IMG/VR virus record: IMGVR_UViG_3300030406_000122
Location: 1-26,898 of that record
Length of the DNA stretch: 26,898 bases
Source: a virus
Strand: one strand, 5' to 3'
Each line of letters opens with the position of its first letter. Position 1 is the stretch's first letter. Of the stretch, positions 8,033 to 26,898 are shown piece by piece. The notes under the pieces are model-generated. The model saw nothing but the letters and a program-made list of their open reading frames with translations, made no database searches and was not told the DNA's origin. A program made the position numbers and the translations under genes.

Positions 8033-9570
8033 CTGCGCCCATCCGCTCTTACATCAATTCTTGGAGCACCAAGCCGCCACTTCACATCCACCGCGTTGCT
8101 GGAAACCTTGAAGTTCAGGCTTCTGCCTCGTGCTCGGGTAAAGATCTGATTTGTGTATACGTCTGTGCTACTTTCGGTAACCACACCAGAAACCGTCTCT
8201 GTAATCGCCTTACCAGGGAAGTCACGGGACTGAATCGACAGGGTAGCCGCTGGGGTCGAGGTGTCAGAATCATTGAACGTGATGTCTGGTATCACGCGCC
8301 GCAGGAACATGAACTGTTCGCCATCGCCTATATCAAAGTCAGACGACTGCACAAAAGCGTTGATCGCAGAGCCGTCATCATTCAGCCCAAACTCATGATT
8401 GTACAGATAGCCACCCTCCACTGCCTGTGGGTAGCTACGCTGTCCTGCGCCTCGATCATTCCATGCGGTACGAGACAACTGTCCGTAATACCAGACCTTT
8501 TCGCCGTAGTTATAGACGACATATCGGTTTACTTCACCTGAAGCATTATTGGTCTGGGTAGGATAGAACCACCAGATCTCTGTCTCTGATGCCAAGGATC
8601 CAGCGTGGATCTTAAACGCCTGATTACGATTCAGGTCACTGAAGACATAGTCCCGCACCGAACAAGGCAACGCCTGAACACGACCATCATACACATAGAA
8701 GTTTTCCTGCCCCATCCAGAAGACAACGTCATTGACGCTGACTGCGGCATTGGGACTGGCAATTCTCACGTTATCAGCCAACAACGCAGTGCCGAAAGTG
8801 AACGGCGCACCCGTAAACTGAACAGAGTTCAGGCTTGTATCGGTCCAAACCAGAATCTCACGCCGTGTTCTGAGAGCGGTGATGATCTCGGAGCCTTGCG
8901 ACAGGCGGATGTCTCCCGCCGTGTTTGTCGCCGTAGGCGTCCAGTTGGCAGCGTCCTCTTGGTTAGAGAAGCGAATCAATAGCGGGTCTTGTTCGGTTGA
9001 GCCTAACGGATTAGCACCAAAAGCCAAGACATGCCTATCTACTTCAGAAACAAGAATCTTACGAGCAACGGTAGGTGTATTGCTGGCCCCTGACAAGTTC
9101 TCTAAAGGAATGGCTCGATTGTTCGTCAAACCTCCAGTGGCATCCCAGTAGTATACTCGCCCGTCCGCGACGTTGATGATCAGATCTTCACCAAAGTTGT
9201 CTGCGAACCACAGACGTAGGGTCTGACCCGCAAGATTACCTGCCGCACTGCCCCATGTAAAACGACCCCATGTGCCTGCGCCCCAACCAGAGCCAAGAAC
9301 CGTGGTATTCAAGCCGGTCTCAAGCAAATAAAACGCCGACGCCTGCCCCGCAGAAGAGTTCGTTTGATCTGCGGCGGAGGACAATGTGATGGTGTATGTG
9401 TTGGTCGCGGCGGATTGTACTTCAAATTCAGCCGCCAACGCTGAGTTCAATGCCGACGACAGACCAGACACATCCTCAAAGATCACGCGATCTCCTGTCA
9501 AGGCACCGTGCGCTGTATCGTTAACGGTTACAGTCGTGCTTCCGCTGGTTGTGGTGAATGTTATAGCCAT
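8029..9570 (-). CDS. tail hub, P22 gp10-like beta-propeller part (C-terminal half of a split gene, 513 aa)
   Basis: Residues 1-70 (ITFTTTSGSTTVTVNDTAHG...) form a beta domain that in intact relatives, as I remember them, lies inside a single ~650-700 residue protein. The rest is a beta-rich body resembling the DNA-stabilisation/hub protein gp10 of P22: a segment like REILVWTDTSLNSVQFTG, then NDVVFWMGQENFYVYDGRVQ, a VVYNYGEKVWYYGQLSRTAW strand pair, and YLYNHEFGLNDDG. It would join the connector to the tail fibres or needle and hold packaged DNA. The start is ATG at 9570, sharing its A with the stop of the N-terminal half (TGATG), with GGAG 7 bases upstream; a TTG one codon earlier is possible. 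It has no N-terminal hub motif of its own, so it must work with the upstream gene. Confidence 0.75.
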   Translation of the reverse strand: MAITFTTTSGSTTVTVNDTAHGALTGDRVIFEDVSGLSSALNSALAAEFEVQSAATNTYTITLSSAADQTNSSAGQASAFYLLETGLNTTVLGSGWGAGTWGRFTWGSAAGNLAGQTLRLWFADNFGEDLIINVADGRVYYWDATGGLTNNRAIPLENLSGASNTPTVARKILVSEVDRHVLAFGANPLGSTEQDPLLIRFSNQEDAANWTPTATNTAGDIRLSQGSEIITALRTRREILVWTDTSLNSVQFTGAPFTFGTALLADNVRIASPNAAVSVNDVVFWMGQENFYVYDGRVQALPCSVRDYVFSDLNRNQAFKIHAGSLASETEIWWFYPTQTNNASGEVNRYVVYNYGEKVWYYGQLSRTAWNDRGAGQRSYPQAVEGGYLYNHEFGLNDDGSAINAFVQSSDFDIGDGEQFMFLRRVIPDITFNDSDTSTPAATLSIQSRDFPGKAITETVSGVVTESSTDVYTNQIFTRARGRSLNFKVSSNAVDVKWRLGAPRIDVRADGRR

Positions 9571-10247
9571 CAACCTACTCCAACAGTGACGTAACCAGCG
9601 GCGCCGGTGGCTTCAAGACCTAGCGGGAAGAACCCTTCGTCAGCGGTTGGATCACCGCCGCTAGGCAGCGTCTTAACAGTGACAGTGCCAAGATCGCTTG
9701 TGATCTGTTCTGTAACTTCAGATATGATCAACCTGTGTTCCGCAGGCTCCAGATCACCCACCTGACCAGTGGCTTCCTCACCTGTCACAAGCACATGATG
9801 TGTGGTTTCAACAATGATGGATCCGACCAGACCGGCTACACCCGTAGCTTCCTCACCCGTTACGGCGACATTCTGAGTCGCTACGGCACCGGTGAAGATT
9901 ACAACGCTACCAACGCCCCCTGTTGCGGCGGAACCAGTGACAGCTTGAGGCAGAAGCACCGTGCGCCGAAACGGCGTGATGTCTCTGAATGTGCCAGATT
10001 CTTCTATGTATGCCTTGATGTGGGTGCCTACGAACAGTAGGTTCTGAGATGAGAGCGTTACAAAATCATGCAGCTCTCGAGCTGTGCCAAGAAACGTGGT
10101 GCTGTTTACTTTCTCCCAACCACCAATTCTTTCAACATATCCATAACGAAAGCGGATGAAGTTCCCATCAAACCATCCGCCCTCATTAGAATAGTTGGTG
10201 CCCTCGCGATTGATACCAGGGCGAAACTGGAGTTTGGTAAGAGGCAT
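9570..10247 (-). CDS. tail hub, N-terminal half carrying a repeat insertion (225 aa)
   Basis: Residues 1-95 begin MPLTKLQFRPGINREGTNYS and continue EGGWFDGNFIRFRYGYVERI-GGWEK, ending near RDITPFRRT. That is the N-terminus of the large gp10-like tail protein common in marine short-tailed phages, where it runs on directly into the beta domain that here starts the next gene. Instead residues about 102-225 are copies of a short repeat (VTGSAATGGVGSVV, VTGEEATGVAGLVG, VTGEEATGQVGDL, LGLEATGAAGYVTVGVG), after which the frame stops. The downstream half restarts in another frame at a TGATG junction. I read this as a hub gene split by repeat gain, with both halves still expressed; it could also be a recent disabling break. 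Confidence 0.75.
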   Translation of the reverse strand: MPLTKLQFRPGINREGTNYSNEGGWFDGNFIRFRYGYVERIGGWEKVNSTTFLGTARELHDFVTLSSQNLLFVGTHIKAYIEESGTFRDITPFRRTVLLPQAVTGSAATGGVGSVVIFTGAVATQNVAVTGEEATGVAGLVGSIIVETTHHVLVTGEEATGQVGDLEPAEHRLIISEVTEQITSDLGTVTVKTLPSGGDPTADEGFFPLGLEATGAAGYVTVGVG

Positions 10248-18159: not shown

Positions 18160-20952
18160 TCACGCTGCTATGTCTTCCCAGTTATCGCTAACCCCTGTAG
18201 TGATAGTGCTCCAAGACGGAGACTGACTTGGCGACACAGCACTCCAAGATGGTGACTGACTCGGAACAATCTGACTCCATACCAAGACAGACCCAACTTG
18301 GCCTGTTCCGACTATACCAGTAGCCGGCACATTTGCCAATCCCGTGACAGTTGCCGAACCCAGTCCACTTTGAAGGGCATCTGAAGTGACCTGAACGTCT
18401 GCCGACGCAAGTGCAACAGCGGTTCCCTGCGATGCCGTCAGGCCAATGCCTGTAACATCTATGTTGTTGTTGGTAACTAGAGAAACTTCTCCAACAGATC
18501 CTGTGGCCTCTATTCCTGTGGCAGGAACATTGGCCTCGCCAACAACGGTTACAGAGTTGAGCCTTCCTGTGGCCTCTTCTCCCGTGAGAACCACAGTAAT
18601 ACCAATAACAACTGTGGTGCTTCCTACTTGGCCCGTGGCGTCTTCGCCAGCAACGGAAACAATGGCTTGAGCATCTACTGTTACAGAATCAACCTCGCCG
18701 GTTCCTTCTGCGCCGGTGACATCTATATTGTTGTTGCTTACAGGGACAACAGAACCAACTTCACCTGTGGCTTCCAAACCAGTCTCAGGAACATTAGCAT
18801 CCGCTGTAACGGTTTCATCACCGACTTCGCCTGCGGCTTCTGAACCAGAAACCGCTACATCCGCCGCCGCTACAACAGTTTCATCACCAACGGCGGAGGT
18901 GGCTTCCTCACCGGTGACATCTATATTGTTATTACTTACAGGGACAACCGAACCAACGCTGCCGGTTGCCTCCTTTCCGGTCTGCACCAGAATCTGTTGA
19001 GTAGTGACGGTTTCATCACCAACGGCGGAGGTGGCTTCTGATCCACTAACAGCGACCACAGCGGCGGCGTCTACGGTGACAGAGCCAACGCCAGAGCTGG
19101 CCTCCAATCCGGTCTCAGGAACAACCGCACCAGCGTCTATAGTGACAGAGCCGACCCCACCCGTTCCTTCTACACCGGTTTGAACTAGAACTTGTTGAGT
19201 GGTGACGATTTCATCACCAACTTCGCCTGTGGCCTCTACACCGGTTTGAACTAGAGTTTGCTGAGTGCTGACAGTTTCGTCACCAACTTCGCCCGTGGCC
19301 TCTATGCCAGTTTGAACTAGAGTTTGCTGAGTAGTGACAGTTTCGTCACCAACCTCGCCAGTTCCCTCCACACCGGTGACGGCGACGTTGAAGATCACTC
19401 TTGCGGTAACCGAGCCAACTGCACCGGTCCCTTCGGATCCGGTAACAGACAGGTTCTGTGCGGTGCTTAGAGTAACAGTGCCTACAGCGGAGGTAGCTTC
19501 AGATCCAGTAACAGAAACAACCGCAGCGGCAGAAGTCTGACCGCCAAAGTTACGAAGACCAAGAAGGTTGTTTTCATTGTCCGCGTTATCGTCTTCTACG
19601 ATAGCGCCGACTGGCACCTCTGAAACAAACCGCATACCCGCCGTTAGAGCGTAACTCTTCGCGTTTGGTTTGAGAGTATTGTCGGTTGTAGTGCTGGAGA
19701 TAAGCTGGAACTTAGTCGGGAAGTCTGATCCCGTGTTGCTTGTCGCAAGCTGTATCGTGTCTACAAGTGTGCCGCTGCTGTTATAGACCTCGATGTTGCG
19801 GCCATTTGTACCCGGCGCACCCATGAAGCATACAAATTCTGCTGCTTCAATAAGGCGAAACTCGTGAGCAAAACAGCCCTCCGGTATAAAGCTGGTTTTT
19901 TCACCACCGTCACTGTCCGCGATACTGAATGCCGCAGAGGCTTTGGCCGTTTGGTATCTATTACTTGGCCCAGTAAAGTCTGTACCCGCAGCAAAATTAG
20001 TGTTGATTGTGCTTATCGTGGAACTGTTACTGGTTCCGTCACTAGCAAATCTTGTAAAGGTTTGTGCCGTTCCACCGTACCCATCAACCAAAACCGCTGT
20101 TGCACTGCCTGACGCAAAGCCGTAAAGGAAATCAGTGGTTGCAGGGAAGAGTGACCTACTGTCGAAGGACAGATCATCGTTAGCGCTCTTGAACACCATA
20201 ATCGGAATATCAGAAAATATCGTATATTCAGGATCACTGGTATCGTCGCTGTAAGTTTGCGTTGTGGTTGCAGTGCTGCCAACACTCAAGGTTGTAGTCG
20301 ATACACCGTCCTTGAATATCTCTACAGATGCTGTGCCAAACAAGGCTCTCATCTGAAGTCTTACGCCAAAACGAGTATTTCGTATACCAAAGGATGTACC
20401 CGCCCAAGAGGTCGGAACACCTACCGTTTCGTTGTTGGCATTTTGCAGCGTAATCGGCTTGTTCGCCGATATTATCTTGTTTTCGTAGTCAGACGCGGAA
20501 ACCGCAAGTGTTCCACCTGCCGAACTTATCGTGCCAAGAGACACACCGTCAGCCGAAACTGTCGTGCTATCTTCATAAGCAATGACTGTAATATTTGGAT
20601 TATTATCGTCATCAGGTACGAAATATTCGGCGTTGAGGGCGCCGCCTAGCTCTGGGTTGCCTTGAGCCGCAAATCCAACAACGGAAACCCCTGCATTCGC
20701 GGCAACCGTTACGCTACCAACCGAACCAGTAGCCTCTAGACCAGTCTCAGAAACATTGGCAACGCCGGTTACAGTTACAGAACCTACGCCTGATGTGGCC
20801 TCCAAGCCAGTTTCTGGGATGTTAGCTTCTGCATCAACTGTTACGCTACCGTTGCTTGCGGTAGCCGAAACTCCAGACGCAACAACAGGTAAGGGGGAGT
20901 TCCACGCCCCTTCGGACCATGAACCCCGACCCCAACCTGTTATGTTAGCCAT
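18160..20952 (-). CDS. large repeat-containing virion protein (930 aa)
   Basis: The N-terminus ITGWGRGSWSEGAWNSPLPV and the C-terminus (VPSQSPSWSAVSPSQSPSWS, then NWEDIAA) are both known to me from structural proteins of marine phages. Between them lie three copies of a ~22-residue repeat (about 24-97), a globular beta domain (about 105-480, with NAEYFVPDDDNNPNITVIAY and FIPEGCFAHEFRLIEAAEFV), and nineteen more repeat copies (about 484-892). The unit has the form V-T-G-x-E-A-T-G-x-V-G-x-x-T-V. It is probably a virion appendage or tail protein whose repeats act as a variable-length stalk. ATG start with AGGAG 8 bases upstream. Length in relatives likely varies with repeat number. Confidence 0.72.
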   Translation of the reverse strand: MANITGWGRGSWSEGAWNSPLPVVASGVSATASNGSVTVDAEANIPETGLEATSGVGSVTVTGVANVSETGLEATGSVGSVTVAANAGVSVVGFAAQGNPELGGALNAEYFVPDDDNNPNITVIAYEDSTTVSADGVSLGTISSAGGTLAVSASDYENKIISANKPITLQNANNETVGVPTSWAGTSFGIRNTRFGVRLQMRALFGTASVEIFKDGVSTTTLSVGSTATTTQTYSDDTSDPEYTIFSDIPIMVFKSANDDLSFDSRSLFPATTDFLYGFASGSATAVLVDGYGGTAQTFTRFASDGTSNSSTISTINTNFAAGTDFTGPSNRYQTAKASAAFSIADSDGGEKTSFIPEGCFAHEFRLIEAAEFVCFMGAPGTNGRNIEVYNSSGTLVDTIQLATSNTGSDFPTKFQLISSTTTDNTLKPNAKSYALTAGMRFVSEVPVGAIVEDDNADNENNLLGLRNFGGQTSAAAVVSVTGSEATSAVGTVTLSTAQNLSVTGSEGTGAVGSVTARVIFNVAVTGVEGTGEVGDETVTTQQTLVQTGIEATGEVGDETVSTQQTLVQTGVEATGEVGDEIVTTQQVLVQTGVEGTGGVGSVTIDAGAVVPETGLEASSGVGSVTVDAAAVVAVSGSEATSAVGDETVTTQQILVQTGKEATGSVGSVVPVSNNNIDVTGEEATSAVGDETVVAAADVAVSGSEAAGEVGDETVTADANVPETGLEATGEVGSVVPVSNNNIDVTGAEGTGEVDSVTVDAQAIVSVAGEDATGQVGSTTVVIGITVVLTGEEATGRLNSVTVVGEANVPATGIEATGSVGEVSLVTNNNIDVTGIGLTASQGTAVALASADVQVTSDALQSGLGSATVTGLANVPATGIVGTGQVGSVLVWSQIVPSQSPSWSAVSPSQSPSWSTITTGVSDNWEDIAA
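18277..19515 (-). repeat. C-terminal coding repeats, nineteen ~22-residue units
   Basis: Nineteen consecutive degenerate units, most 21-23 codons long, each with a core like TG-x-E-(A/G)-T-(G/S)-x-V-G. Three units in a row remain close at DNA level with a strict 66-base period: the block starting TTTGAACTAGA on the plus strand recurs at 19179, 19245 and 19311. A second sub-family carrying Asn-Asn-Asn-Ile-Asp-Val-Thr-Gly recurs at about 18448, 18718 and 18919. The mix of near-identical and diverged copies points to repeated local duplication. Boundaries are approximate. Confidence 0.85.
20662..20883 (-). repeat. N-terminal coding repeats, three ~22-residue units
   Basis: Three units of the same repeat near the N-terminus of the 930-residue protein: ASGVSATASNGSVTVDAEAN, TGLEATSGVGSVTVTGVANV and TGLEATGSVGSVTVAANAGV, followed by a partial one (VGFAAQGNPELG). 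They are separated from the nineteen C-terminal units by a non-repetitive domain of about 380 residues, which looks as if it had been inserted into, or flanked by, one repeat array. Boundaries are approximate. Confidence 0.8.
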
Positions 20953-22356: not shown

Positions 22357-22656
22357 TTAAACCACCACTGTGACAGATCCTACGCTGCCGGTCATTTGCG
22401 CCTTATCCACTGGCGGAAAGACGTTATTGCCGACCGGAACGAATACATGGCCCTTTCCTGTATCAGGTCTAGGGTCGCGAAGAGCTTGTGGATCAACGAC
22501 TCTACGTCTCGGATCAAGCTGCGGATGTTTCTCTTCAAATTCATCAGAACCTACCTTCAAGCCATTCCATTCTACCCGCATGTCACGAAGACGATAGCGA
22601 AACCCAGACCGATCTGAGATTCCGTATGCGTCTTTGCCTGAAGCATAATTACCCAT
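22357..22656 (-). CDS. conserved small virion-associated protein (99 aa)
   Basis: Starts MGNYASGKDAYGISDRSGFR-YRLRDMRVEWNG, then EEKHPQLDPRRRVVDPQALR-DPRPD. This is a highly recognisable conserved gene of marine phages between the two adaptor genes, with no known function to me. The basic, Arg-rich first 65 residues suggest contact with DNA or with an acidic virion surface. The last 12 residues, MTGSVGSVTVVV, look like one unit of the repeat seen in the 930-residue protein and in the split hub. TAATG overlap with the upstream connector gene. Confidence 0.65.
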   Translation of the reverse strand: MGNYASGKDAYGISDRSGFRYRLRDMRVEWNGLKVGSDEFEEKHPQLDPRRRVVDPQALRDPRPDTGKGHVFVPVGNNVFPPVDKAQMTGSVGSVTVVV

Positions 22657-23321
22657 TACACCCTCAGATACTGGATGTCAGGCTGCAGCTTCAAAGACAC
22701 TCGATCCTCGTCCTCGTCAGCGGCTCGTTGAAACTCCTCTTCATAAACATTTTTCAAAAGTTGGATACGCTCCGGCGCCTTCTTCAGAGCGATGTAATAT
22801 GCCATGCCGGCAACCGCACAAGGCAAGAACCGGAAGGGCAACTCAACATTGTTCGTCAGTGCATCAGCATCTTCTATACGTCGTATGAAGTAATATACAA
22901 TCTGATCTGTACTATTTTCCGGTGTCGGCCAAAGCGTGATCTGTGGCGTGATCTGCCGATTAAAGAAGAACTGAGAAGGGCGACCCTGTGTCGTTTTGTT
23001 AGGGATCGACAAGTAATCGCCACGACTCAGTCGAGTCAGATCAAAGTCTGTGTTACTGCGCCGTAGAACAACTTCAAGAAGATCTACAACATCTGCACCT
23101 AGAGTTTCAGTCGCTTGATTATTTGTAAGCGTTATCGTTGCTTGCCTGACCGTCCAAAGGTTTACCCCTCTGTTCGCCCAATCTGCAAACATCAGATTCA
23201 TAGAGCGTCGAGCTGTTCGCGCATCGTAACCAGTGCGAACCTCTAGCCCACAACGCTCATACGCCTCTTCTATGATGTCCGAAACATCAAGATCAAAATC
23301 TCTAGAGTTAGATGTTGCCAT
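22656..23321 (-). CDS. head-tail connector protein, P22 gp4-like (221 aa)
   Basis: Starts with a helical region, DLDVSDIIEEAYERCGLEVR-TGYDARTARRSMNLMFADWANRGVNLW, which matches the P22 gp4 type of connector (helix, A-x-x-x-L-x-x-M-x-x-x-W-x-x-x-G). A beta part follows with DVVDLLEVVLRRSNTDFDLT-RLSRGDYLSI and QITPQITLWPTPENSTDQIV-YYFIRR, and ends in helices (LPCAVAGMAYYIALKKAPER). These proteins bind the portal after DNA packaging and begin the tail. ATG at 23321, preceded by a weak ribosome-binding sequence (AGAGATAAG). Family call from motif pattern. Confidence 0.78.
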   Translation of the reverse strand: MATSNSRDFDLDVSDIIEEAYERCGLEVRTGYDARTARRSMNLMFADWANRGVNLWTVRQATITLTNNQATETLGADVVDLLEVVLRRSNTDFDLTRLSRGDYLSIPNKTTQGRPSQFFFNRQITPQITLWPTPENSTDQIVYYFIRRIEDADALTNNVELPFRFLPCAVAGMAYYIALKKAPERIQLLKNVYEEEFQRAADEDEDRVSLKLQPDIQYLRV

Positions 23322-23327
23322 ATCAGC

Positions 23328-23483
23328 TTATCTCTTTGATTTGACCCGTCCGCCGCTACGGAAGCCGGCCTTTTTCTTTTTAGCAACCATCCCGCCGCCA
23401 CGAAGCATTACCTTCTTGCGAACAGAACCGCCGCCTCTCATCATCTTCTTGCCGTTCTTCATTCTCTTCATTGCACCTGGCAT
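23328..23483 (-). CDS. very small basic protein with RGGG repeats (51 aa)
   Basis: A 51-residue gene: begins MPGAMKRMKNGKKMMRGGGS and ends AGFRSGGRVKSKR. Nineteen of 51 residues are Lys or Arg and none is acidic. Three loosely spaced RGGG/RSGG units (MMRGGG, MLRGGG, FRSGG) alternate with Lys-rich stretches. Start ATG has GGAG 6 bases upstream and overlaps the end of the acidic protein gene by 16 bases; the stop lies 6 bases before the connector gene. I recall similar Met-Arg-Gly-Gly-Gly/Lys peptides in cyanophage and pelagic phage genomes. Strong charge suggests binding to nucleic acid or a packaged-DNA partner; function unknown. Confidence 0.75.
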   Translation of the reverse strand: MPGAMKRMKNGKKMMRGGGSVRKKVMLRGGGMVAKKKKAGFRSGGRVKSKR

Positions 23484-24016
23484 TTCAATCTCCTGTAATA
23501 GTCCTGCCGCTGCTGATATAGAGAGGAACCGTCATAATAATCTTCACAAGTATTATAGTAGCCCTTCTCTCTCAACTGATCCGAAGCCTCTTGCAACTTA
23601 CTTAACCGTTGCAAGAAAATCATCGCATAAGGCTCCTCGTCAGTCATCTCTATCTCATCGTCCAAAAGATCGTTGTCTTCTGCCTCTGGATGAAACCCCA
23701 TTAAGAACATGTCCTTAGTAGCAAATACACCCTCTGCAATATCTTTGTTCATATCATCTAAAAAAGCATACATATCATCTAGTTCTGGGTAACAATGATC
23801 CACCAATATGATCACTTCCTTTGAGTCATCCCAGTCTTCAACAGCTAAATACAGGCTGTCCCACTCTTCCGTATCCTTAAACAAAAATCCTACCTTATCT
23901 TCGGCCCAAGCCTTACGAGCAAAAGGACAAGCTGGCAAACCGTTGTAGTTTTCGTTTGTCTTCTCTAAGACAGAGGCCGACCACCTTTTCAACTCTTGAA
24001 TCACAGCTTCTTGCAT
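23468..24016 (-). CDS. acidic protein with LPACPFARKAW motif, function unknown (182 aa)
   Basis: A soluble 182-residue protein. Near the N-terminus it has GLPACPFARKAWAEDKVGF, a Cys-Pro-Phe-Ala motif that I have seen in unassigned phage proteins. The middle and C-terminal parts are strongly acidic (runs such as DDSKE, PELDDMYAFLDDMNKD, EAEDNDLLDDEIEMTDEE), and residues about 60-105 alternate hydrophobic strands and helices, possibly a small ferredoxin-like fold. It lies within a row of highly basic proteins, so it may bind or chaperone one of them. ATG at 24016, three bases after the upstream stop; a TTG just before is less likely. Confidence 0.65.
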   Translation of the reverse strand: MQEAVIQELKRWSASVLEKTNENYNGLPACPFARKAWAEDKVGFLFKDTEEWDSLYLAVEDWDDSKEVIILVDHCYPELDDMYAFLDDMNKDIAEGVFATKDMFLMGFHPEAEDNDLLDDEIEMTDEEPYAMIFLQRLSKLQEASDQLREKGYYNTCEDYYDGSSLYQQRQDYYRRLKCQVQ

Positions 24017-24019
24017 CAA

Positions 24020-24301
24020 CTACTTCTTCTTTCTTCTGCGCACAGCCTTGACGCGCCTAGGCTTGCCAGCAGGTTGACCCAGCCGTTTCTTCTGTGAAAT
24101 ACGAGACTTCTTCTCTTTGGAGGACAACTCCTTTGTTGTTTTGGGCGTCTTTGAAGAAATCCGCTTTGATGGGCGACAATAAGGGACACCACGTTTTTCT
24201 CCTTTCTGGCGCCCACATTTCTTGCCCGTGCGGACATCCTTCCAATCTTCCTTGAACCAACGCTTGAGTGCGAGTCCAGCTTTTGTCTTTCTAACCGCCA
24301 T
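24020..24301 (-). CDS. small basic protein, DUF5872-like (93 aa)
   Basis: A 93-residue, strongly basic protein: AGLALKRWFKEDWKDVRTGK-KCGRQ, GVPYCRPSKRISSKTPKTTK and a Lys/Arg-rich tail ending KAVRRRKKK. The 'GLxRWFxExWxDxxTGKxCGR...YCRPSxRxSxxTPKT' pattern is one I associate with DUF5872, known from phages and large algal viruses; the family name is from memory. Two cysteines (KCGRQ and YCRPS) about 16 residues apart could bind metal or cross-link. The ATG overlaps the stop of the 44-residue gene (TGATG). No function known; nucleic-acid binding is inferred from charge. Confidence 0.72.
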   Translation of the reverse strand: MAVRKTKAGLALKRWFKEDWKDVRTGKKCGRQKGEKRGVPYCRPSKRISSKTPKTTKELSSKEKKSRISQKKRLGQPAGKPRRVKAVRRRKKK

Positions 24302-24435
24302 CAGGATTGCTCCACAGCGCCCTTTGTGCGCTTACGTCTTTTTGGCAAGACGGCTCCGCAACCTCTCGCTACTGCGGTTCCTTTGATCCGCTTGCCTCGA
24401 AACTTGCGCTTCGGTCTTGTCGCCGGAACTCGCAT
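24301..24435 (-). CDS. very small basic protein with ARGCGAV motif (44 aa)
   Basis: A 44-residue gene reading MRVPATRPKRKFRGKRIKGT, then AVARGCGAVLPKRRKRTKGA and VEQS. Sixteen residues are Lys or Arg and only one is acidic. The ARGCGAV-x-x-x-RRK-x-TK element is one I remember from tiny proteins in cyanophage and pelagic phage genomes. The gene fits exactly between two TGATG junctions: its ATG shares an A with the stop of the 77-residue gene, and its TGA shares an A with the ATG of the 93-residue gene. That fit, plus the known motif, makes it real although a longer overlapping frame also covers this spot. Function unknown. Confidence 0.75.
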   Translation of the reverse strand: MRVPATRPKRKFRGKRIKGTAVARGCGAVLPKRRKRTKGAVEQS

Positions 24436-24668
24436 CAATAGGTCTTACCTTTGCGTTTAGATGAGCCAGTCTTTCTTTTAGACTTCTTACTCTTTCCTCC
24501 AGTTCCATAGTTTTTGGCTCCCACTTTTCGGCATTTAGCAATCGCTCCCGAAGCATACGCCGATGGAAAAACCTTATATCTTGCTTTAACCTTTCGGTAA
24601 CATGCATCTTTTGGCACTTTAACCCCCTTAGTTGTTTGCTTGGCGATAGATCTGCGCGAGATCGTCAT
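24435..24668 (-). CDS. small basic protein with conserved CYRKVKARYKVFPSAYASG motif (77 aa)
   Basis: A 77-residue protein with VKVPKDACYRKVKARYKVFP and SAYASGAIAKCRKVGAKNYG, a strongly conserved element in phage and algal-virus genomes, followed by a Lys/Ser/Gly tail (GKSKKSKRKTGSSKRKGKTY). The two cysteines (Cys in ACYRK and AKCRK) are about 24 residues apart. The tail resembles disordered DNA-binding tails. The start ATG has GGAGAAAGG just upstream and lies 41 bases inside the membrane-protein gene, an unusually long overlap for this operon. The function is unknown; structural or DNA-binding use in the head is inferred from position. Confidence 0.72.
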   Translation of the reverse strand: MTISRRSIAKQTTKGVKVPKDACYRKVKARYKVFPSAYASGAIAKCRKVGAKNYGTGGKSKKSKRKTGSSKRKGKTY

Positions 24669-24840
24669 TGCCTTTCTCCGCTAGAAACGCCTGCCACATG
24701 GGTTTGATCATCTCATAATTTGAGGCGACCTTCTCTTTCACAACAGCAGTATCCGTCTTGAGTTCAACGATAGAAATACCTATCCAACCCAAGAACGCCA
24801 AAGTCGCACCACTAATGATTGTGCTTAGATTCTTCAACAC
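24628..24840 (-). CDS. single-pass small membrane protein, holin or spanin candidate (70 aa)
   Basis: One membrane segment at about residues 5-26 (LSTIISGATLAFLGWIGISI) is followed by a charged helix (KTDTAVVKEKVASNYEMIKP) likely to form a coiled coil, and a short polar tail. One helix with a soluble coil fits a class III-like holin, an inner-membrane spanin or an XhlA-type protein. It is the only short membrane protein in the window and the lysozyme lies 24 kb downstream in the same operon. The frame is open to a TTG at 24864, but GTG at 24840 overlaps the previous stop (GTGTTGA) and has AGGAAAAGG just upstream, so I prefer it. Confidence 0.62.
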   Translation of the reverse strand: MLKNLSTIISGATLAFLGWIGISIVELKTDTAVVKEKVASNYEMIKPMWQAFLAEKGNDDLAQIYRQANN

Positions 24841-25118
24841 CGCCACCTTTTCCTTGCCTGACAAATACGCTTGTTGGGCGTTTTACGGCAATTGATGTTA
24901 TGCATCTTCATCTGCCCCTTTGAGCGGGAGCAATAAGAACTGCGGCGTTTCGCACGAGACTTGCTCGGCTTTTTCTCCGTTACAGCCGTTTGGAGCTTGC
25001 TGCCTGGATTCTTACGACGATACGCCGCGACTCCAGCTTTAGTCATTCCCGCCCCAGCTTTAGTGGGGCGGAAATTCTTTTTGTTGCGTTTAGGCATCTT
25101 TGCGGCTTTGCGAGCCAT
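24834..25118 (-). CDS. small basic protein, DUF6321-like (94 aa)
   Basis: Starts MARKAAKMPKRNKKNFRPTK, then GAGMTKAGVAAYRRKNPGSK-LQTAVT and a C-terminal part SYCSRSKGQMKMHNINCRKT-PNKRICQARKRWRC. The 'GMTKxGVAAYRRxNPGSKLxTAVT ... CxRxxGQMK ... RxARKRWxC' order is a conserved small family of tailed phages that I remember as DUF6321; the name needs checking. Four cysteines in the last 35 residues could form a metal site. The ATG at 25118 overlaps the previous stop (TAATG), which decides it over the longer frame reaching 25169. Strongly basic; role unknown, probably virion or DNA-associated. Confidence 0.73.
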   Translation of the reverse strand: MARKAAKMPKRNKKNFRPTKAGAGMTKAGVAAYRRKNPGSKLQTAVTEKKPSKSRAKRRSSYCSRSKGQMKMHNINCRKTPNKRICQARKRWRC

Positions 25119-26060: not shown

Positions 26061-26898
26061 TTATGCGCCCGGTGAACCGAATACGCAACGCGGATCTGAG
26101 AAGCCGAAGCTGTAACGCTCACGAGCCTTGAAGCGCATGTTACCGGTGTCGAAGTCTGCTTCCATCTGTGTAGACAAAGGCAGACGCTCAAAGTGGATGA
26201 AGCCACGGGGAGCATCGGTAAGGATGAAGAACGCATCCGTATCCGTAAGGAAGTCGTTGACATGGTAACCGTCAGGCAACATCCCCATAGAACGAATTGC
26301 GTTAACATCGTTGTCCGCAGTACCCACACGCAGGTTGGACACCATCAGGCGCTCTGCAACGAACTGAAGCTGACGAGGTATGATCAACTTCATGCCGCGA
26401 AGGGCAACCTTCAGGCCACGCTCATCAACGAAACCAGCGATGCTGATCAGAGCGTCCTCGAGTGAGGTCTCGTTCAAATCAGCGGCTGTGCTTGGCTCGT
26501 TAGCAAACGTGCTACCGTTCGTAAGCGGATGCGATGCGTCACAGAGTGCAACACCGTCACCGCCAGCAGACGCACCAGCCGTAAACGCATTGTTAAGAAT
26601 GCTAGCTGCTTTGACCTGCTTCGTGTGCGCCATTGAACGGGCAAGAGCACGAGTGTAGCGAGAGGAGAGACGATCATAGAGATTGTCTTCCACGGCTTCT
26701 TCCGTGATCGAAAACGCCAGTGCAATGGTTTCGTGGTTGTACCGAGCGGTGAATGCTTCGTTGGCATCATCAAAACTGATGGCGGAACCTTCCGACTTAG
26801 TCGGAGCGGCGCCAAAGCCACTCAACATGACCTCTTCCTCAAATGCTCGATCTGAAGACTCGGTGGTGTAGATTTCGGCGTGCTGGTTTTCATACCTG
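26061..26898 (-). CDS. major capsid protein (partial, N-terminus beyond window)
   Basis: The reading frame stays open to the window edge, so at least 278 residues are present and the N-terminus is missing. It begins RYENQHAEIYTTESSDRAFE and continues EEVMLSGFGAAPTKSEGSAI, ITEEAVEDNLYDRLSSRYTR, ALARSMAHTKQVKAASILNN, and ends KARERYSFGFSDPRCVFGSP. This order is that of the HK97-fold major capsid proteins common in marine phage genomes and sometimes labelled Mu gpT-like. It builds the head shell. An internal ATG at 26828 is not the start, because the conserved coding pattern continues upstream. The gene is separated from the rest of the operon by two terminators, in line with its need for much higher expression. 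Confidence 0.88.
   Translation of the reverse strand, partial: RYENQHAEIYTTESSDRAFEEEVMLSGFGAAPTKSEGSAISFDDANEAFTARYNHETIALAFSITEEAVEDNLYDRLSSRYTRALARSMAHTKQVKAASILNNAFTAGASAGGDGVALCDASHPLTNGSTFANEPSTAADLNETSLEDALISIAGFVDERGLKVALRGMKLIIPRQLQFVAERLMVSNLRVGTADNDVNAIRSMGMLPDGYHVNDFLTDTDAFFILTDAPRGFIHFERLPLSTQMEADFDTGNMRFKARERYSFGFSDPRCVFGSPGA

Follow-up and report, generated by a model that had tools for sequence, protein, structure and literature searches.

Small basic proteins probably packaged in the heads of marine phages

Phage T4 carries basic internal proteins in its head, about 300 copies of each, which undergo processing by its prohead protease and show DNA binding at low salt (PMC9026906). 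The T4 prohead protease cuts after L/I-x-E (PMC9026906). Among cyanophages, the paper on Synechococcus phage S-SCSM1 describes 45 virion proteins detected by mass spectrometry and carries its authors' caution that some of them may be carry-over. Here, a 26,898-base virus record (the window, meaning the whole stretch of DNA analysed) was found to carry a cluster of five small basic genes, P1 to P5. We consider, with a rough probability of 0.55, that the products of P1 to P4 are head-internal basic proteins which bind the packaged DNA and probably leave with it.

The basic gene cluster

All likely genes of the window lie on the minus strand. The major capsid protein (26061..26828, minus strand; Pfam Phage_capsid_4) is of the HTVC023P type and is 70% identical to that of Pelagibacter phage HTVC023P, while its other closest relatives are DSL-LC04, 023Pt_psg01, HTVC027P, and Roseobacter phages CRP-901/902. 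From the capsid gene to the SU10-type head–tail adaptor (22656..23321, minus strand; Pfam PF24175, E 1.1e-14), the order is two neutral or acidic proteins, P1, a 78-aa ORF, P2, P3, P4, an acidic ORF, and P5, and neighbouring ORF ends in the cluster overlap or touch. This agrees with the earlier note, made from the letters alone, which had described a row of five basic proteins of 94, 77, 44, 93, and 51 residues beside capsid genes, overlapping or joined, with a membrane protein and an acidic protein among them; all of these ORFs are present between 23,328 and 25,118.

P1 (24834..25118, minus strand) has 94 residues, four cysteines, and a net charge of +31. P2 (24435..24668, minus strand) has 77 residues with a 'YxVxPSAYAxG...KC' module, two cysteines, and a net charge of +24, and P3 (24301..24435, minus strand) has 44 residues with a 'GTAVARGCGAV..RRKRTK' tail, one cysteine, and a net charge of +15. 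P4 (24020..24301, minus strand) has 93 residues, two cysteines, and a net charge of +31, and corresponds to the C-terminal half of DUF5872, with the motif 'WFkexWxDvxTGKxCGR...PxCRP'. P5 (23328..23483, minus strand) is a low-complexity, GG/K-rich protein of 51 residues with no cysteine and a net charge of +19. The cysteine counts of 4, 2, 1, 2, and 0 match the earlier description of one to four in four of the five, and the Lys+Arg counts of 16/44 in P3 and 19/51 in P5 are likewise as first reported. Lys and Arg make up 32–40% of P1 to P5 against 7.8% of the rest of the window, and the chance odds of each protein's content at that background are 9e-8 to 1e-17 (binomial P). Isoelectric points are 10.9–12 for the five, compared with a median of 4.8 and a maximum of 9.2 for the other 33 proteins of the window, and their summed net charge is +120. 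For P1 to P4, pN/pS is 0.17–0.25, close to the 0.16 of the adaptor gene, so these four are real genes under purifying selection; the estimate covers P1 to P4 and the adaptor, P5 and the acidic ORF being without relatives at 75% identity or more.

Two further ORFs, both with TTG starts, are interspersed in the cluster. The 78-aa membrane-type protein between P1 and P2 (24628..24864, minus strand) has a weak match to a PHROG of unassigned function. The 183-aa acidic protein (23468..24019, minus strand; DUF1415-like, Pfam PF07209, E 2.7e-6) lies outside the basic set, and only 17 of 67 intervals in relatives have it interspersed with their basic genes. Elsewhere, the window encodes a very acidic protein of 930 aa (18160-20952, net charge -80) in which a degenerate 'VTGxEATGxVGSVTV' repeat recurs many times; the genes at 9570-10247 and 22357-22656 hold this motif in shorter form.

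Protein families, predicted folds, and cysteines

P1 matches Pfam DUF6321 (PF19846) with E 6.2e-14 and 52.8 bits over columns 6–72 of 72, above the family cut-off of 28.5 bits. P4 matches DUF5872 (PF19197) with E 3.5e-16 and 60.3 bits (cut-off 27.5), covering only columns 49–111 of 116, while P2 reaches 14.4 bits (E 0.061) over columns 11–54, in the other half of this family, below its cut-off of 27.5 bits. P2 also matches phrog_727 (E 6e-17), a 450-aa phage family of which P1 and P2 match separate parts. P3 gave no match in a tblastn search of the phage collection; P3-matching ORFs in relatives number 103, of which 68 also match P2 in the same ORF and 10 match P4. P5 resembles a GG/K family which is present in 83 loci near P1, P2, or P4 (E 7e-5, with a low-complexity bias), and it is only weakly tied to the rest of the kit. 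The earlier note's statement that several of the proteins have conserved motifs of other phages is confirmed, while for algal viruses support comes from one paper that lists a DUF5872 protein in an algal virus. That listing is the sole mention of either DUF found in the literature, and no paper giving DUF6321 or DUF5872 a function was found in a search that covered few subscription journals.

AlphaFold predicts P1 to be a small, confident fold of three helices (pLDDT 85), while the P4 prediction is of low confidence (pLDDT 64). Sequence searches of the PDB with P1, P2, and P4 and a fold search of the PDB with P1 gave no match, and the good viral matches of the P1 fold are mostly DUF6321 proteins. 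With P1 predicted to fold, the term 'protamine' is only loosely apt. The suggestion of a packaged, protamine-like set holds in part: fused homologues are reported in virions, but P1 is a predicted three-helix fold with conserved cysteines, and not a disordered polyarginine.

The inner cysteine pair of P1 is complete in 69 sequences and wholly missing in about 235, with no clear single-cysteine sequence. The P2 pair is likewise present in 117 and missing in 89–96, while the P4 pair is kept in 311 of 314 distinct relatives and the P3 cysteine in 75 of 75. Trees show that cysteine states changed only one or two times, so the pairing is not taken as proof of disulfides; disulfides or metal binding by the paired cysteines are guesses from sequence. 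A second cysteine pair in P4 was considered and rejected, as a broader profile revealed an alignment shift.

Co-inheritance as separate genes

Several hundred IMG/VR loci were gathered with six anchors. In a non-redundant set of 67 complete intervals from capsid to adaptor gene, every interval has both P1 and P4, P3 is present in 49, P2 in 48, and P5 in 9, where the high counts of P1 and P4 arise partly by construction because loci were fetched by P1 or P4; a relative of the 78-aa membrane-type ORF is present in 35. Independent anchors give a cleaner picture: loci fetched with the P4 of Roseobacter phage CRP-7 contain P2 in 80/80 and P1 in 52/80, and those fetched with the P2 of phage C72C1, which has no cysteine, contain P4 in 79/80. 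Where two modules are separate genes, they are always on the same strand at a median distance of 160–1300 bp, and in phages of the window, CRP-7, and C72C1 types the separate P1, P2, and P4 genes are nearly always within 1.5 kb. The core P1, P2, and P4 modules are conserved in phages whose hosts are SAR11, Roseobacter, Prochlorococcus, and Synechococcus. Exceptions exist. Of 28 HTVC010P-type loci covered for 3 kb or more on each side of P1, 14 have neither P2 nor P4 near it, and in HTVC010P the P1 gene is away from the head genes. CRP-901 lacks these genes in its capsid-to-adaptor interval; its P2- and P4-type ORFs lie elsewhere, near a nuclease gene.

A check of whether the five genes co-occur, proposed in the earlier note, thus did not find scattered occurrence: unrelated phages keep P1, P2, and P4 close together, and other phages have them fused. 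A set of exactly five is another matter, for P1 to P4 are linked, but P5 is weakly tied and neighbouring phages swap in many further basic families. The capsid-to-adaptor interval of relatives holds small basic families which vary by phage, including GG/K repeats, KLHAxQA helices, and LYTDENP proteins (for example, L133 2005-5431 and L150 774-4204). In addition, the P2 start MTISRRSIAKQ resembles the leader (M-x-ISR-x-S) of another small basic family, MSISRSQMRQQISKPPQKKK...NCAKPKGFSERAYC, which is present in 110 loci, a likeness which suggests that leaders may recombine between small basic families.

Fusions and protease-type motifs

On cyanomyovirus-type contigs, the modules occur in single chains, with 43 distinct ORFs of the order P4-P2-P1, 15 of P4-P2, and 11 of P2-P1; the reverse order P2-P4 is a natural fusion in one ORF. 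P1 is the C-terminal module of the cyanomyovirus virion proteins. Four other small basic families of these neighbourhoods also serve as fusion modules, in 4, 9, 4, and 2 of 77, against 0/2222 control ORFs, except for one family with 2/2222, and those two look P2-like. When three of the fusion proteins were scanned against Pfam, DUF6321 was the only domain found, and none was enzymatic. Cyanophage fusions (loci L408-L487) repeat a cysteine module, CWxGYxxxGxxxxFGKxYNxCVK, which is also preceded by [LIVMF]xE.

Of 183 distinct contexts, 164 have [LIVMF]xE within the 10 residues upstream of a P1, P2, P4, or CWxGY module, compared with 178/1512 (12%) of the remaining windows in these ORFs and with 67 +/- 6 when the windows were shuffled, the motif having been widened from L/I to LIVMF after the sequences were seen and the module anchors picked by eye. 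The motif P values ignore the shared ancestry of the sequences; among mutually dissimilar contexts (fewer than 4 of 10 residues in common), the motif is present in 43 of 49. When only E-containing windows are considered, the counts are 164/178 before modules and 180/747 elsewhere, and the strict T4 form [LI]xE is found in 96/185 before modules and 91/1546 elsewhere. Because a T4-type protease acts on the prohead and the motif precedes the modules, a location in the head interior may be inferred. The motif precedes modules only in cyanophage fusions, and inspection of the window proteins revealed no recognisable N-terminal targeting propeptide.

Virion data from relatives

The 517-aa protein S-SCSM1_29 of Synechococcus phage S-SCSM1 carries P4 at residues 64–139, P2 at 208–250, and P1 at 443–517, and its virion assignment rests on the label 'virion protein' in the GenBank record. 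In S-CREM2, gp137 carries the P1 module and gp160 carries P4 and P2; the published mass spectrometry table gives four unique peptides for gp137 and seven for gp160, a low coverage (4.1% and 13.1%) from which retention of the basic modules in the head does not follow. S-P4 gp060 ('T4 GC0119') is annotated as a 'structural protein'. For HTVC023P-type phages, no virion proteomics was found in the literature. S-CREM2 gp160 (L167 25343-26236) begins with a stretch like the N-terminal arm of the capsid protein (L167 15482-16852), and GxxGFTGxxAxxGPxAGxDPxM is common to both and to SSCSM1_97, a 61-aa S-SCSM1 virion protein (L490 8122-8307). Judged by its sequence, this stretch may be a capsid-binding tag.

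A proposed modular head-protein kit and its alternatives

A packaged role is favoured because P1, P2, and P4 are co-located or fused and fused homologues are reported in virions. The computed support is co-location, fusion, punctuation by the motif, and conservation, while the presence of fused homologues in purified virions comes from published data and record labels. On this reading, the window would encode as stand-alone genes a modular kit whose parts are small, basic, cysteine-bearing head proteins, with P1, P2, and P4 as its core and P3 as an appended tail. The kit proteins would be made late alongside the capsid proteins, enter the prohead, and be kept in the mature capsid against the packaged genome, where they might locally neutralise or order its charge; at ejection, they would probably exit with the DNA. 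In T4-like cyanophages, the modules would be made as one long chain, [LIVMF]-x-E would mark the sites of cleavage by the prohead protease, and the resulting pieces would be what the window phage encodes as separate genes. That the stand-alone proteins behave like their fused homologues is inferred by analogy. Several points count against the packaged role: many cleaved T4 core fragments leave the head (PMC9026906), against modules staying inside; according to one paper, evidence is lacking that basic proteins do much to neutralise phage dsDNA genomes; P1 is predicted to be folded; HTVC010P-type P1 is often alone; and the window proteins lack a targeting peptide.

The proteins might instead be head-packaged effectors that enter the host along with the DNA and there target the nucleoid, RNA polymerase, or nucleases. 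The virion and protease-site evidence fits this equally, T4 IPI and Alt and the packaged multidomain 'polyvalent' proteins of other phages are precedents, and the interval is a swarm of swappable small families, as in arms-race loci. However, P1, P2, and P4 are conserved across four host groups and a DUF5872 protein is listed for an algal virus, whereas a host-specific target should make them diverge, and no enzymatic domain is present; we regard this role as rather unlikely. It is unlikely, too, that the modules are structural or assembly factors which bind scaffold, portal, or shell, their charge serving protein–protein contacts in assembly or as glue. The genes do lie among head genes or beside terminase, and both the capsid-like start of S-CREM2 gp160 and the annotation of S-P4 gp060 fit such a role, but a net charge of +15 to +31 in 44–94 residues is extreme for shell or scaffold contact, and the many relatives without P2 or P3 argue against an obligate scaffold role for these two. 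Both are live rivals that share most of the evidence with the packaged, DNA-binding role.

A further reading, which we hold to be very unlikely, is that these late proteins are no part of the virion but have their task inside the infected cell, perhaps on host DNA or RNA, and end up in virion preparations as contaminants. Basic proteins are able to adhere to virions, the S-SCSM1 authors' caution applies here, and the HTVC010P P1 gene is away from head genes, yet the modules are preceded by prohead-protease-type motifs, linked to head and terminase genes, and detected in two separate phage studies. A chance pile-up of five unrelated small genes in a mosaic region, to which the weak linkage of P5 and the many different small basic families of the interval might point, is hardly credible for P1 to P4, which are fused and co-located across unrelated phages.

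Should the kit order phage DNA, this would speak against the view that basic proteins play little part in genome packing. DUF6321 and DUF5872 are carried by ocean phages of several abundant hosts (pelagiphages, cyanophages, and roseophages), and the findings here provide both families with a shared, testable virion role, explain why they occur both as neighbours and in single chains, and name candidate cut sites for the modules in cyanophage chains. A more far-reaching proposal, which we put forward tentatively as a possibility, is a chromatin-like head kit of marine phages, in which recombining, folded, Cys-paired basic modules would order the genome; small podoviruses would encode each module in its own gene and T4-like cyanophages would make a polyprotein cut by the prohead protease, with at least the DUF5872 part shared with algal viruses. 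The relation between separate genes and polyprotein appears to be undescribed in the literature searched, which included few subscription journals.

Comparison with known systems

Protamines are Arg-rich and intrinsically disordered, whereas P1 is predicted to be folded; the P4 model is of low confidence, and P5 is of low complexity. Phage polyvalent proteins combine enzymatic and DNA-binding domains in one packaged chain (PMC5512222), unlike the three scanned fusions, which show DUF6321 only. Chlorella virus PBCV-1 also packages basic proteins with its dsDNA (PMC3281028), a likeness from which no relation is claimed, and its main candidates are larger (about 60–70 kDa) and partly kinases (PMC3281028). 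Like T4 IPI, IPII, and IPIII, the window proteins are small and basic (pI 10.9–12), and their fused homologues carry L/I-x-E-type motifs; the window differs in having several distinct Cys-bearing modules, each in its own gene, and no sequence match is claimed. Lacking a recognisable targeting propeptide, the window proteins may resemble the T4 internal proteins in their mode of action at most, and do not belong to that group.

Closer counterparts are the stand-alone P1, P2, and P4 of Roseobacter phage CRP-7 (gp65, gp64, and gp63) and Prochlorococcus phage P-SCSP2 (gp23, gp19, and gp22), which lie in one cluster, either next to the terminase gene or flanked by scaffold and capsid genes. These phages are of other types with other gene orders, and by eye no P3- or P5-like gene was recognised in them. 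The cyanomyovirus virion proteins with DUF6321 (S-SCSM1_29, S-CREM2 gp137/gp160, and S-P4 gp060) carry homologous P1, P2, and/or P4 modules, but within chains of 297–529 aa with linkers and protease-type motifs, whereas the window devotes one gene to each.
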